DNA of 64,000 nt from a virus: positions 1 through 64,000 of IMG/VR virus record IMGVR_UViG_3300032676_000779, one strand, 5' to 3'. The notes beneath the pieces were generated by a model. That model did not search any database and had not been told where the DNA came from. It was given only the letters and a program-made list of their open reading frames with translations. The position numbers and the translations under genes are program-made. Shown here in pieces: positions 14,193 through 39,947 of the stretch (positions are counted from its first letter, which is position 1; the number at the start of each line of letters is the position of its first letter).

Positions 14193-14651
14193 TTACCCAA
14201 TGCTAATGTCTTCCATGCCTGCGGTACGTAGACGCACCACATGACCCAGCATGAAGTTTTTAGATTCGATTGCTTTAAGCACGCCCAACCATTTGTTGCG
14301 AAGTAGTGCAACTTCATTTATGAGAACTTCAAAATCGATGACTTCTTGTTCACCGTCAACATACTTCTCTGCGTCCCGTGACGTTAACGCACGAGCATAA
14401 CCTTCAAGATATTTTTGAAAGTGTTTTCTACGAATCTTGCGAAGCTGGATGTTTAGAAAATTGAGTACCGCTTCGATTTCTTGGAGTTGGTTGAAACGGT
14501 ACTCAGTTATTCCAGGAAGTGCGGCAATGTTTTTCTCTACATTGCCATACACCTTAACATCTTGTTTGGCAGAGACTAGCTCATTCTCGTAATGAGAGAT
14601 GAAGTCAGGGAGAACGGATAGATCGCCGGTAATTCGGCTATACCAGGACAT
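14193..14651 (-). CDS. uvsY: UvsY-like recombination mediator
   Basis: 152 residues, mainly helical and basic in the middle (NIQLRKIRRKHFQKYLEGY). ALTSRDAEKYVDGEQEVIDF followed by a long helix is the pattern of UvsY proteins, which load UvsX onto gp32-coated DNA. It is in one block with uvsX, separated only by a short acidic gene, and downstream of gp32. The call leans on context because UvsY diverges fast. Confidence 0.6.
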   Translation of the reverse strand: MSWYSRITGDLSVLPDFISHYENELVSAKQDVKVYGNVEKNIAALPGITEYRFNQLQEIEAVLNFLNIQLRKIRRKHFQKYLEGYARALTSRDAEKYVDGEQEVIDFEVLINEVALLRNKWLGVLKAIESKNFMLGHVVRLRTAGMEDISIG

Positions 14652-14932
14652 CAGTAGTCCTCGTCATACCCATCTTCATCGTCATAGTACTCATCGTAAA
14701 ATAATTCTTCTTTAACTTGATGATATAAGCCATCTTCTGGGGTTTCTAGATAGAAAGACAGTGCATCCTTAATGTCCGAGTCTCCTCGAAATGCTTGCTT
14801 AATTTCATTAGGAGAGTAGTCTTCATCAACTAGATAATTGACCAACACTTCTGCGGCAGTACTAATGTCACCTGCTTCAATATTAGGTCTAAGTACCTTC
14901 CAAATTTCATTAACCAAACTTAAGTTGCTCAT
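14651..14932 (-). CDS. Small acidic protein next to uvsX
   Basis: 93 residues. LVNEIWKVLRPNIEAGD begins a helical domain; EIKQAFRGDSDIKDALSFYL is the most patterned part; the last 15 residues are almost all Asp, Glu and Tyr (DEYYDDEDGYDEDY). Overlaps uvsX stop (ATGA) and the UvsY-like start. Similar small acidic neighbours of uvsX occur in cyanophages. The tail may mimic DNA or bind UvsX, but that is guesswork. Confidence 0.65.
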   Translation of the reverse strand: MSNLSLVNEIWKVLRPNIEAGDISTAAEVLVNYLVDEDYSPNEIKQAFRGDSDIKDALSFYLETPEDGLYHQVKEELFYDEYYDDEDGYDEDY

Positions 14933-36600: not shown

Positions 36601-36972
36601 TTAACGACTGCCGATTGGTTGTCCATTAACCGCAACAGATACGAGCGAGCCACCGTTCGTGCCATCCTTAAGAGGATGTACAACTACGACAGCCTTATCG
36701 CCGGACTTCAATGAAGTGCGCTTCCAACCGGAACGTGATAGACCATTTGGGCTACCGCCTTCGATTGACCATTCAACTGGCTTACCAGAGGAATCAGTCA
36801 CAATTAGTTGAATCCAAGAATGCGGATTAGTCCATTGAAATTCTTTTACTGTTCCTTCCAATGTCACCGACTTTTGGTTGTCGAACATTGCGAACGAGTG
36901 GTGTGCGGATGCAGGTGCAGCCAAACTTAGTGCTACCAATGCAGCGATTGCAATAATTGACTTGTTTTTCAT
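36601..36972 (-). CDS. DUF6152-type exported protein, host-like
   Basis: 123 residues from the ATG at 36972 (AGGAG 8 bases upstream). A signal peptide MKNKSIIAIAALVALSLAAP with cleavage after ASA precedes HHSFAMFDNQKSVTLEGTVK and EFQWTNPHSWIQLIV, EWSIEGGSPNGLSRSGW, HPLKDGTNGGSLVSV. This is the DUF6152 pattern, periplasmic proteins common in proteobacteria and, as far as I know, not a usual phage gene. It has a late promoter and lies next to the tmRNA. Function unknown. Confidence 0.8.
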   Translation of the reverse strand: MKNKSIIAIAALVALSLAAPASAHHSFAMFDNQKSVTLEGTVKEFQWTNPHSWIQLIVTDSSGKPVEWSIEGGSPNGLSRSGWKRTSLKSGDKAVVVVHPLKDGTNGGSLVSVAVNGQPIGSR

Positions 36973-36981
36973 GATTTGTTC

Positions 36982-37016
36982 TCCTAACATGTCAAAATTA
37001 TTTATGACCTATAGGA
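36982..37016 (-). promoter_or_regulatory. Late promoter with ribosome-binding-site hairpin
   Basis: CATAAATA at 37006-36999 (minus). TCCTA...GTCA upstream pairs with TGAC...TAGGA downstream (5 + 4 bp with an interior loop); the right arm contains the AGGAG site of the DUF6152 gene. Confidence 0.55.
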
Positions 37017-37045
37017 CGATATATCATATTTAAAGGTTTTATAGG

Positions 37046-37375
37046 TGCTAGTTGATTCTGTTTCGAGGCTCAACTAGCAAAGCCCAAAAGACTTATGCGG
37101 CTAACGCAAGGCCTTCATATGCATCATTTTCGTTTGCATTTAGTAATTTGAACTGATTGACGGTCGTTTCTTACCGTGTTCTCCACTTTCCTACTAGCCG
37201 TGAATCGATACTATACGCCCCCATAAGAAAACACACGATGCTCTCCCCGTCTTCTCGGCAGCTACCCCGATATCCCGCTTCACAGAGCCAGCGTCCTGTT
37301 ATCGTGTGTTTACTGGTGGAGGCGAGGGGAATCGCACCCCTGTCTTCCCCGGTTTTAAGTCCGTATCAACGAACA
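37046..37375 (-). ncRNA. ssrA: Circularly permuted (two-piece) tmRNA
   Basis: Reading the minus strand: an acceptor piece comes first, with a T-arm AGGGG-TGCGATT-CCCCT and CGCCTCC-A-CCA ending at 37314. An intervening segment (37313-37223) has an 11-bp stem (37301-37311 with 37229-37239) that continues the acceptor stem. The coding piece then starts GGGGGCG at 37222, pairing with CGCCTCC and giving G3-U70, the alanine identity pair. The tag ORF is at 37137-37093 and a post-tag hairpin (CTAGTTGA/TCAACTAG, 37048-37077) follows. This order, 3' part before 5' part, defines permuted tmRNA as in alpha- and betaproteobacteria and some cyanobacteria. Ends are approximate. SmpB is not in the window; the host would supply it. 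Confidence 0.93.
37093..37137 (-). other. tmRNA proteolysis-tag reading frame ANENDAYEGLALAA
   Basis: Resume codon GCA at 37137-37135, then AAC GAA AAT ... GCG TTA GCC GCA TAA. The encoded tag ANENDAYEGLALAA ends in ALAA, the degron read by ClpXP-type proteases. A small hairpin (ACGGT/ACCGT) lies upstream where the first pseudoknot is expected. Confidence 0.92.
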
Positions 37376-37381
37376 AATACT

Positions 37382-37410
37382 ATTTAATCATATATGACAT
37401 TGCATGTCAA
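37382..37410 (-). promoter_or_regulatory. Sigma70-type promoter of the tmRNA
   Basis: TTGACA (37410-37405) overlaps the stop codon of the 37407 gene; TTAAAT (37387-37382) follows after 17 bases. The predicted start near 37375 would precede the acceptor piece by about 20 bases. Confidence 0.65.
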
Positions 37411-39947
37411 CCGTATTTTTGCACGAAGCGTGATTTTAACCATTCCCACTCGTAGCTCAATCGCAGTGCATCAAAATCGCCATCAACTTCATCGTAATAG
37501 GCTTCTGCGTCTTTTGCACCCTTGATGCTATATTCTGCAAAATCACCTTCAGCTTTAGTAAGCCAAGCTTCTAATCGCTCTCGGGCAATGTCGGTATCTT
37601 CGGCCTTCAATTTGACCACTTCACGGAATGCGGTACGCCAAGTAGAGAACGGATCAGTGTTATAGTTTGCAGTACCGGACATGAGTGGAACAACTTCGTG
37701 CAGGTCATCCAACGTAAAGTCTAGTCCATAACCGTCATTCTCTAGCACTAATTGCTTATTATACGCGATCATCGCTTGGTGACCGTAGATCAATCCATTG
37801 ACCGGATTCTTCGCATGAAAGATATAATGCTTAGGTGCTTGCATTCGATCTGGTTGCCATGACCAATCAAAATTAGAATTGATGTGTAACTTAGCGAATA
37901 CCGTAAATAACCATGGTGTCTCGCTGGCTTCGGCAGCAGCATGATATGCAGCAACTCGACCATTAACTCCATCCACTCTGACTACCCTATTTGGTATGTT
38001 TTTAGTAATTTGAAGTAGATGCTCCCAGTTTTTTTCGGCCCCGGCTTCACCGTTACTGAGATACACTATGTCCATCGGTTTAGATTTGGTTAGTTTTTTT
38101 GCTCGCTTTATATACGGGTAATCATACAGTTCACTTTTGACATAGTTTTTAGCCTCGCGAGGAATCGTAACTCTAGTTGCACCTGTACTAGAAATAATGA
38201 TTGCTTTCTGTTCGGGTGACCAAAGACACATAGGTTCGGGATCAATTTCAGGATCCATATCCCAGTTTTCTTCAGTTACTAGAGTTACATAAGGAAAATC
38301 CCATTCATAATTTCTAGCATAATCCATATGTGTTTCATTTGGAAAATATGCACCTTCGATAGTTGTGGGTGTCATCAATCTTGAGACAACTTGATGTTGA
38401 TTATAATTAATCTTTTCATAGTCTTCTAGACGATGCATATCTGCTATCAATTTGCGCAGCTTGTTGACGTTTACTAGAAACGTGTCTCCTAATTTTTGAT
38501 TACCGCTCGGGAAGACGTGGAGTTGTTCTTTGGTGTACGGATCGCAGATATAGCTAAAATCAAATCTGCTATAATCACACACGCTACTACAAATCCATAC
38601 ATAATGTTCACGATTGACATCTAATTTACTGAGTACCTCCTTGAATGTTTTTAGATAATTGGTATCATATTTCACAGCAATGATGTTTCTTTCGCTCAGA
38701 TTTTTACTGAGTAGATCATCTTTTACTGTATCAACACCGTTACCATGGTCGATGATTACTATAGCATAAAGACAATCAACTGCCTTAGCAGGTGATCGTT
38801 TTACAAAATTTATATTAGGCAAATGCTCAATGACTTTTATATATTTGGTATCATCAGCAAATGTATTTTTGTTAACCATAAAGGTTGTTCCCCAGTGTGA
38901 CCACTGAGTTCCAAACACATGAACTAAGTTCATCTGCCATGGGCTAGGATAGAAATCAAACTCAAATGACGAATAGTCTAATTCACTATTGAGAATCCAA
39001 CATAGATTGGTAGTTGATTTAGTCACACAACGATTGATCGTGTCAACCCAGCTGTTCAGATATCTAGTTTTAGTTACGTTGCCCATACGCTCAGATAATT
39101 GCTGAAAGCGTTCTTGTGCCTGAGGATTTCCTTTATCGACAAAGAAAATATCGATCTTGGTTCGTACATCTAGTACCTTATCCTCAATGTAGTTAATGTC
39201 CCGATAACCACGTGCCCACATCTTACCATTAACAAAGTAAGTCTGGGAGTTTATATTGTCTTTCGTACCAAATGCATTTATGTGATATACGTTCTTACTG
39301 TCAGGGACCCATTTAAAGTCAAACCCAGAATAATCAATTTCAGGATTCAATGCCCAAAAGATTTCATTAGTGTGGTCGTTGATTAAATCTTCCAATGTAG
39401 TAGTGATGTAGTACTTCGAAAACTCTAGGTCTTCTAGTATGACCTCCTTGCGTTCTAGATGTACTATGGTTCCGTCATTATAGGGAGTGACGTATCTGGG
39501 TCCGTCGTTTTCATCGAGCAGAGTACCGAATTGATATATGTATGGAGGAGACGTAGGATCTGGGTGCCAAGAAAAGTCAAACCTAGATTTATCCAGGGCC
39601 GGATCTATAATCCAAAAATCATTGATTTCATTCTTGCGTTGAATTGGGGGAACATCGGTTCGATAGATAGTATAATCACCGGCTACCTTAGGACACAGCC
39701 ATGTACCACTATCTTTTTGATGTTGGCTAGGCCATACATTGTCGTGTGCCTCTGCCCAAATATCTTCGTCAGGTAATAGCTCGAAATCAAAGTCCCAATC
39801 AAATTTACGGTAGTCACAAAACTCGTTGATAATCCAAAAATGCTCAGTCGTACACTGATTCCTAGCATCTTCTAGTGATTCAGCAAATTTTTCTCTTGGA
39901 TGGACATTGGGTTTGGAACCGGAGTAGAATACTTCTCTAATTGCCAT
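37407..39947 (-). CDS. Repeat protein with glycosyltransferase-like C-terminus
   Basis: 846 residues. At least five imperfect repeats of about 80-100 residues each contain a hydrophobic-Trp strand followed by DYSxFDFxWxPD and HVFGT: for example FWIINEFCDYRKFDWDFDF, FWALNPEIDYSGFDFKWVPD, CWILNSELDYSSFEFDFYP. After residue about 600 it changes to MDIVYLSNGEAGAEKNWEHL, RVVRVDGVNGRVAAYHAAAE, a domain shared with the 52860 gene and like GT-A transferases. Likely a surface- or glycan-acting enzyme. Exact activity unknown. Confidence 0.65.
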   Translation of the reverse strand: MAIREVFYSGSKPNVHPREKFAESLEDARNQCTTEHFWIINEFCDYRKFDWDFDFELLPDEDIWAEAHDNVWPSQHQKDSGTWLCPKVAGDYTIYRTDVPPIQRKNEINDFWIIDPALDKSRFDFSWHPDPTSPPYIYQFGTLLDENDGPRYVTPYNDGTIVHLERKEVILEDLEFSKYYITTTLEDLINDHTNEIFWALNPEIDYSGFDFKWVPDSKNVYHINAFGTKDNINSQTYFVNGKMWARGYRDINYIEDKVLDVRTKIDIFFVDKGNPQAQERFQQLSERMGNVTKTRYLNSWVDTINRCVTKSTTNLCWILNSELDYSSFEFDFYPSPWQMNLVHVFGTQWSHWGTTFMVNKNTFADDTKYIKVIEHLPNINFVKRSPAKAVDCLYAIVIIDHGNGVDTVKDDLLSKNLSERNIIAVKYDTNYLKTFKEVLSKLDVNREHYVWICSSVCDYSRFDFSYICDPYTKEQLHVFPSGNQKLGDTFLVNVNKLRKLIADMHRLEDYEKINYNQHQVVSRLMTPTTIEGAYFPNETHMDYARNYEWDFPYVTLVTEENWDMDPEIDPEPMCLWSPEQKAIIISSTGATRVTIPREAKNYVKSELYDYPYIKRAKKLTKSKPMDIVYLSNGEAGAEKNWEHLLQITKNIPNRVVRVDGVNGRVAAYHAAAEASETPWLFTVFAKLHINSNFDWSWQPDRMQAPKHYIFHAKNPVNGLIYGHQAMIAYNKQLVLENDGYGLDFTLDDLHEVVPLMSGTANYNTDPFSTWRTAFREVVKLKAEDTDIARERLEAWLTKAEGDFAEYSIKGAKDAEAYYDEVDGDFDALRLSYEWEWLKSRFVQKYG

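Follow-up and report, generated by a model that had tools for sequence, protein, structure and literature searches.

The locus poses two questions: whether a phage gene for a circularly permuted, two-piece tmRNA is a working gene, and what occupies the stretch between its two pieces. The window, the whole 64,000-nucleotide stretch of DNA that was analysed, comes from a virus record of 101,981 bp, and the same locus is found in a record of 258,859 bp. A first-pass annotation had assigned the tmRNA to a T4-like phage, an assignment supported by a T4-type terminase, a UvsX-like recombinase, a member of the phage SSB family and the large related record. The terminase is nearest (~50% identity) to those of Sinorhizobium phage Phosso and of PA5oct-like Pseudomonas phages. 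We favor, at a probability of about 0.85, the reading that the locus is a functional ssrA gene of the phage, permuted and of the alpha type, and that its excised segment is an RNA of ~90 nt belonging to an undescribed structured family that also occurs behind tRNAs.

Permuted tmRNA in a phage is already in print. The accessible text of PMC9004378 (2022) describes a phage-encoded two-piece tmRNA in Methylophilales phage Melnitz and reports 133 unique tmRNA structures in 402 of 18,146 phage genomes, 53 of them two-piece and 50 of these from marine or aquatic samples; the available portion of PMC11915505 lists 79 phage tmRNA sequences and founds the family RF04321. Since phage two-piece tmRNAs are published, the window tmRNA adds a new member to a kind already known. 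The novelty is the RNA element in its intervening segment and the slot in which that element lies.

Anatomy and conservation of the permuted tmRNA gene

A cmscan of the entire window returned two matches above gathering score, both aligned end to end: RF04321 tmRNA_permuted (113.8 bits, cut-off 47, E 2e-21) and RF01849 alpha_tmRNA (78.2 bits, cut-off 50, E 1.6e-19). Together they place a permuted tmRNA at 37414-37047 on the minus strand, and ARAGORN agrees, with a tmRNA* (permuted) call at 37002-37407 carrying the tag ANENDAYEGLALAA; it finds no tRNA within the window. The first-pass annotation had named a covariance-model search as its check, and the alpha model indeed matched, while the beta model RF01850 reached 50.3 bits, under its cut-off of 84. 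The window tmRNA is thus of the alpha type (78.2 vs 50.3 bits), and a beta assignment was rejected; a cyanobacterial two-piece model was not scored separately. Read along the minus strand from 37410 to 37047, the parts are as follows.

37407..39947, minus strand: upstream gene of 846 aa, unknown function; several relatives have a permuted tmRNA downstream
37382..37410, minus strand: promoter-like site from sequence, TTGACA 37410-37405, N17, TTAAAT 37387-37382, overlapping the upstream gene's stop codon TGA 37409-37407
37314..37375, minus strand: acceptor piece, with P2 5′ strand UGUUC 37375-37371, T-arm, CGCCUCC (CGCCTCC in the DNA, 37324-37318) and ACCA 37317-37314; RF04321 alignment and pair types in 123 viral sequences
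37223..37313, minus strand: intervening segment of 91 nt, holding a structured RNA element; absent from mature tmRNA by analogy
37138..37222, minus strand: 5′ part of the coding piece, with GGGGGCG 37222-37216, D-loop analogue, P2 3′ strand GAACA and PK1 stem CGGU/ACCG; RF04321 alignment and pair types
37093..37137, minus strand: tag frame ANENDAYEGLALAA, with resume codon GCA at 37137, 14 codons and stop TAA ending at 37093; ARAGORN and sequence
37047..37078, minus strand: post-tag hairpin from sequence, GCUAGUUGA 37078-37070 paired with UCAACUAGC 37055-37047, loop GCCUCGAAACAGAA

This is the arrangement that the first-pass annotation had proposed, with the acceptor piece ahead of the coding piece, and its details hold: all seven pairs of the acceptor stem form, including G3-U70, the ends it predicted at 37314 (CCA) and 37222 (5′ G) are exact in the sequence, and the 11-bp stem it described inside the intervening segment (AAACACACGAU/AUCGUGUGUUU) joins 37311-37301 with 37239-37229. 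The tag frame, the post-tag hairpin and the promoter-like site are likewise where it had put them. Compared with the RF04321 and RF01849 models, the gene is set apart by a 91-nt intervening segment with its own conserved fold and by an imperfect P2, which bears mismatch marks in the RF04321 alignment and leaves two consensus pairs (G-G and G-A) unformed. Distal P2 and the PK1 stem do pair in the window and occur as several pair types elsewhere; each of the four PK1 pairs has 19 to 33 non-standard rows among the 123 viral sequences. By eye, the post-tag hairpin of two related loci, L012 and L022, has other paired strands and a similar loop motif. The product of the downstream gene (36601-36972, minus strand) is a DUF6152 protein (133.3 bits); it has no PHROG match, and by eye its start looks like a signal peptide.

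Signs of function were sought across viral permuted tmRNAs. The viral set was collected largely by patterns that fix much of the acceptor sequence and was drawn in part from the matches listed; a set of 111 unique sequences carries a tag filter, with rows lacking ACCA or duplicating both segment and tag removed, and a set of 129 genes was chosen by structure alone with the tag filter dropped. Shuffles for both preserve only single-base content. Among the matches listed, G3-U70 is present in 111/111, a result partly built in because the patterns fix much of the acceptor. A tag ending in one of L, I, M, V or F, then A or V, then A is found in 115 of the 129 structure-selected genes against a mean of 0.45 in shuffled coding pieces; in the other 14 the rule recognises no tag. 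Compensatory pair types are seen in the acceptor stem (GGGGGCG/CGCCUCC, GGGCCUG/CAGGUCC, GGGCCAG/CUGGUCC) and, both by eye and in pair counts, in distal P2 (UGUUC/GAACA in the window, UGUUG/CAACA in L014).

The promoter-like site also recurs. TTGACA-N17-TATAAT-like sites with at least 10 of 12 matches precede 29/129 genes (1.3 in shuffles), and the window's site has 10 of 12 by hand count. At the same score other spacers give 9 (N14), 7 (N15), 6 (N16), 12 (N19) and 10 (N20) sites, each exceeding its own shuffles, with N18 (2 sites vs 3.0) the sole exception. With at least 9 matches there are 39 N17 sites, of which 26 begin 97-106 nt ahead of the CCA end; in the window this distance is 97 nt. 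A simple promoter scan did not list the window's site because that scan demands an A at position 2 of the −10 box. The T4 late promoter TATAAATA was set aside as a candidate for the window, where it occurs 3 times against 6.83 expected. One such late promoter lies just upstream of the L012 tmRNA.

L012 is nearly identical to the window in acceptor piece, intervening segment and core, and most of its tag after ANEN differs; on this comparison the tag appears to diverge far more quickly than the RNA does. Such divergence, in a gene near-identical up to the resume region, is what a captured host fragment or decaying, functionless pseudogene might show, a reading we find barely credible given that the window preserves seven of seven acceptor pairs together with the T-arm, the tag frame and the hairpins, and that permuted tmRNAs also stand downstream of relatives of the 846-aa gene in other phages. 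The gene could instead encode a decoy, a tRNA-like RNA binding SmpB and keeping the host tmRNA from rescue, as has been reported for the CDS-less form of phage DS6A. Inhibition of tmRNA in E. coli by the phage form that lacks the CDS is reported in PMC11915505 (in its accessible part), and tagless tRNA-like copies are visible by eye in marine contigs such as L002. However, the window keeps its resume codon, 14-codon frame, stop and usual tag end, as 115/129 related genes keep a tag; with the tag intact, the window does not show the absence of a tag frame that marks the DS6A type, and we regard a decoy as very improbable. In the tagless copies (L002, L009, L011, L017, L027, L032, L034 and L037, by eye) a tRNA-like domain of tmRNA, ~75 nt long, keeps the standard order and lacks a tag frame, which resembles the inhibitory form reported for DS6A.

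The genomic place of the gene has a history of its own. The upstream 846-aa protein has no Pfam match and no PHROG match; its relatives occupy 42 viral loci, and ARAGORN calls a tmRNA* in 13 of these, five belonging to the window's own phage. Several of the tmRNAs directly downstream of these relatives fit the beta model better than the alpha model (G005, 106.1 vs 53.9 bits; G009, 118.7 bits vs no alpha match; G015, 103.5 vs 31.5 bits). Because tmRNAs of two lineages stand behind one phage gene, the data suggest replacement of the tmRNA at one genomic place, perhaps during host shifts, which remains an inference. RF04321 exceeds its cut-off in 16 of 31 whole records, four of them from the window's phage, and in 5 of 10 further records; PA5oct and Atu_ph07 have no RF04321 match above cut-off. 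An SmpB model matched 0/18 phage records, some of which may be fragments.

Several unannotated or unusual genes were seen alongside. In Phosso (PV764938.1, 349553-350242), a cultured relative, there is a permuted tmRNA of the alpha type (108 bits) that lacks annotation; its intervening segment is very long, ~400 nt, and contains two long stems by eye, and its tag, also by eye, is ANDNVSTKVALAA. Caulobacter phage CcrColossus (JX100810.1, 132369-132662) has a permuted tmRNA above the RF04321 cut-off that is unannotated in the stretch shown, and the IMG/VR contig behind L006 has another above that cut-off. A CUA-anticodon tRNA, "Pyl" in ARAGORN and a possible amber suppressor, lies next to or near the phage tmRNA in L044 (13916-13990) and L055 (15608-15684).

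A structured RNA in the intervening segment

The intervening segments of the 111 unique viral permuted tmRNAs range from 12 to 159 nt (median 82). An end stem of at least 8 bp is present in 92 of the 110 segments longer than 30 nt, against 1.9% of shuffled segments, and 103/111 end in AT. The window's 91-nt segment (37313-37223) is, beyond its end stem, a conserved structured RNA, which the first-pass annotation had missed. Its core, AAC-N-GGACGC-N-GG-N-UC...GAAG...GGAGA, is common to the window and three others of the 111-sequence set. A scan for CCACCA followed by this core gave, among the matches listed, 84 unique matches, 31 of which have a pairing acceptor downstream, and many of the other 53 resemble chance matches or contig ends; a second core pattern was found in 116 viral contigs. 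A covariance model, R1, places the parts of the element in the window as follows.

37223..37311, minus strand: element by model R1 (73.2 bits), with P1 37311-37301/37239-37229
37298-37289, minus strand: hairpin H1, CAG-GACG-CUG
37288-37285/37243-37240, minus strand: element helix P2
37270-37267/37258-37255, minus strand: hairpin H3, loop GGUAGCUG, with palindrome AGCU at 37263-37260

The window belongs to the R1 training set, which qualifies its score. Support for the fold comes from covariation. In a 22-sequence alignment, 99.6% of the 240 cells of the three inner helices are paired, and covariation is 0.480 against 0.152 in shuffled alignments, none of 500 of which was as high; it is low at slid registers, and RNAalifold adds a fourth helix to the element. 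The R1 alignment of 68 unique viral copies (65 distinct rows) has 98.9% of its pair cells paired, covariation of 0.555 vs 0.154 shuffled (0/500) and 192 double-changed cells vs 71.4. This larger alignment was made by R1 and is biased to its structure, and the 22 training sequences are in the set or identical to members of it.

Scans against Rfam 15 around the window (E up to 5) and around the copies in L366 and L161 (E up to 10) brought only tmRNA to gathering score. Matches below threshold were weak; one of them, ST7-OT3_4 (12.3 vs 80 bits), touches the L161 copy. GOLLD and ROOL are absent from the Rfam matches around the window, and the library presumably includes models for both. The accessible part of PMC12286853 supports Rfam holding those models and describes RNAs with some likeness to the element, folded phage RNAs located near tRNA islands, which associate with themselves in part through kissing loops. 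They are large, however, GOLLD often exceeding 800 nt by the same partial source, whereas the window's element is ~90 nt and tied to the junction. T4 RNA C and RNA D (species 1 and 2) are comparable as small stable RNAs annotated beside a phage tRNA cluster; they were rejected as forms of the element, with no R1 match at E up to 10 in T4 69500-74500, the tRNA region. A coding role was also rejected, since no complete frame of at least 20 aa with an ATG, GTG or TTG start lies within the window element; for frames running past its end, ATG starts only were examined. The element, of ~90 nt, apparently belongs to an undescribed family of structured phage RNA.

The unpaired GAAG and UGGAGA are conserved and, flanking a hairpin, recall the core of an aptamer; the element might thus be a ligand-binding switch that couples maturation of the tmRNA or tRNA to a metabolite. 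There is a published precedent of a kind. Melnitz is a myophage and, like the window's phage, has a two-piece ssrA, which the Melnitz authors place among the alphaproteobacterial forms; in the accessible text of PMC9004378 a glutamine riboswitch is predicted in the 3′ domain of the gene; the window's element is unrelated and sits in the intervening segment. A glutamine riboswitch, an idea prompted by Melnitz and by a GAAGUAGG...GAAGG resemblance in L366, was rejected for lack of an Rfam match, and no Rfam riboswitch family reached gathering score in the three copies scanned. We consider a metabolite switch unlikely.

Placement of the element and its palindromic loop

Acceptor pairing places 38 of the 68 copies inside permuted tmRNAs, between the CCA end and the pairing 5′ acceptor strand (ARAGORN's own tmRNA calls cover 25). 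The other 30 are for the most part behind tRNAs: 22 begin exactly 19 nt and 2 exactly 17 nt behind the end of a same-strand tRNA, and 18 have a tRNA no more than 80 nt downstream. In all, 62/68 lie at a tRNA or tmRNA end. Contig ends truncate the copies in L473 and L486, which by eye continue into a tmRNA-like 5′ piece, and for the copies in L469, L471, L472 and L485 the 40 nt upstream contain no tRNA end. In several arrays P1 reaches, by eye, from the CCA of one tRNA to the opening G residues of the following one. The clearest copy away from any recognised tRNA or tmRNA is that in L379 (1746-1830, 68.6 bits, with a longer end stem), which stands directly before a ribosome-binding-like site and the start of a gene that is STAS-like by eye.

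Each of 11 records, five from the window's phage, has exactly one copy, and so the element does not look like a spread repeat. Searches outside these viral contigs gave no further copies: none in 240 and 229 bacterial genomes, a result that says little because no known positive was included, none in a further set of four (two shared with those sets), no blastn match for two element variants in named phage records, and no R1 match in CcrColossus, the other named phages not having been covered whole by R1.

Such placement raises the possibility that the element merely helps processing, acting as a rigid spacer that exposes the junction to RNase P and to 3′ nucleases, and does nothing once excised. 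What speaks for this account is that 62/68 copies are at a tRNA or tmRNA end and that P1 starts at or beside CCA. Yet the segments of other phage tmRNAs, 12 to 159 nt long, are unrelated to it, and each of the 11 records has a single copy even though up to 16 tRNAs surround copies of the element. Moreover, GGACGC, GAAG, UGGAGA and the palindrome described below seem unneeded for processing alone. We hold this account possible but doubtful.

The loop of the third hairpin contains a strict Watson-Crick palindromic tetranucleotide in 66/68 copies of the R1 alignment: GAUC in 54, AGCU in 7, the window among them, CAUG in 3, and GGCC and AAUU in one each. The remaining two loops are GGCU, self-complementary only with G-U pairs. 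Random loops would give ~22.6% such palindromes, a rough figure whose letters come from a misplaced loop set, and the palindrome was spotted and counted on the same 68 copies. Since the loop position switches between palindromes, pairing with a second copy is indicated, and the loop points to kissing-loop dimers of the element, the dimers themselves being inferred from sequence. Alternatively, the palindrome could be a DNA-level or trans-pairing site and not a dimer contact.

Alternative cargo and a proposed pathway

The element is one of several occupants of the slot. In L020 (1215-1605) an intact tRNA-Ala(UGC) is nested in the intervening segment of a viral permuted tmRNA, and tRNA-arm remnants are visible by eye in the segments of L014, L259 and L294. 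Among open papers, insofar as their texts are accessible, descriptions of the discarded tmRNA segment are limited to a nested tRNA-Ala and one repetitive element in PMC11915505. That tRNA-Ala lies in the intervening sequence of a permuted tmRNA from a nominally archaeal MAG, which resembles the window in carrying cargo there and differs in that the window's cargo is not a tRNA. The L020 tRNA-Ala may bear on the nested tRNA-Ala of that MAG.

A third kind of cargo is a micro-ORF. Nine of the 111 segments contain a hydrophobic ORF of 22-26 aa with a UGA stop codon immediately ahead of the segment's final base, against 0.01 per set in dinucleotide shuffles that keep the last four bases, and SD-like letters occur in the first 12 nt of 8/9 of these segments and 5/102 of the others. 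A later scan that required just SD letters, an ATG and the segment end gave 47 matches, 33 of them unique; all 33 have an in-frame, hydrophobic ORF, and 29 lie outside the first nine. Differences by codon position number 340, 152 and 633, with 541 synonymous and 339 changed codons over 83 dependent pairs, which as far as sequence comparison can tell is a coding pattern. Single-span membrane micro-ORFs of 21-26 aa with SD-like letters, contained entirely within the segment and with a UGA adjoining the acceptor 5′ end, are seen in L252, L256, L277, L286, L287 and loci among L536-L577. In the L079 region (14330-14848) a 44-aa peptide, zinc-ribbon-like by eye, starts in the intervening segment, and in L222, L238 and L243 a CPSC...HKC peptide starts there and runs beyond its end.

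On balance we lean toward the reading that the excised segment is a free-standing phage RNA of an undescribed family, carried in tRNA and tmRNA precursors, released by host tRNA-processing enzymes and forming dimers through its palindromic kissing loop, and that the permuted tmRNA slot of phages can hold this RNA, a tRNA or a gene for a membrane microprotein. In the proposed pathway a single precursor would start at the TTGACA-N17-TTAAAT promoter, and the acceptor stem and the stem of the intervening segment would hold the CCA next to the 5′ G. Enzymes of tRNA processing would then cut after CCA (37314) and before G (37222), leaving two pieces held paired through the acceptor stem and P2. No RNA-seq or processing data stand behind these steps. 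The element would most likely be freed by the same cuts and pair with a second copy via its palindromic loop, an inference that leaves its function not shown.

The assembled pieces could be charged with alanine by host AlaRS through G3-U70. Together with host SmpB, they would rescue stalled ribosomes and add ANENDAYEGLALAA for recognition by host proteases; a tmRNA role with host SmpB is a fair inference. The phage might gain rescue capacity while mRNAs are being cut, or its own choice of tag.

The part of the tmRNA that is discarded thus carries a conserved, strongly covarying RNA whose loop is self-complementary, a small and tractable RNA of unknown function that is tied to phage translation. 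The slot in which it lies would be a way for phages to get several products from one precursor.
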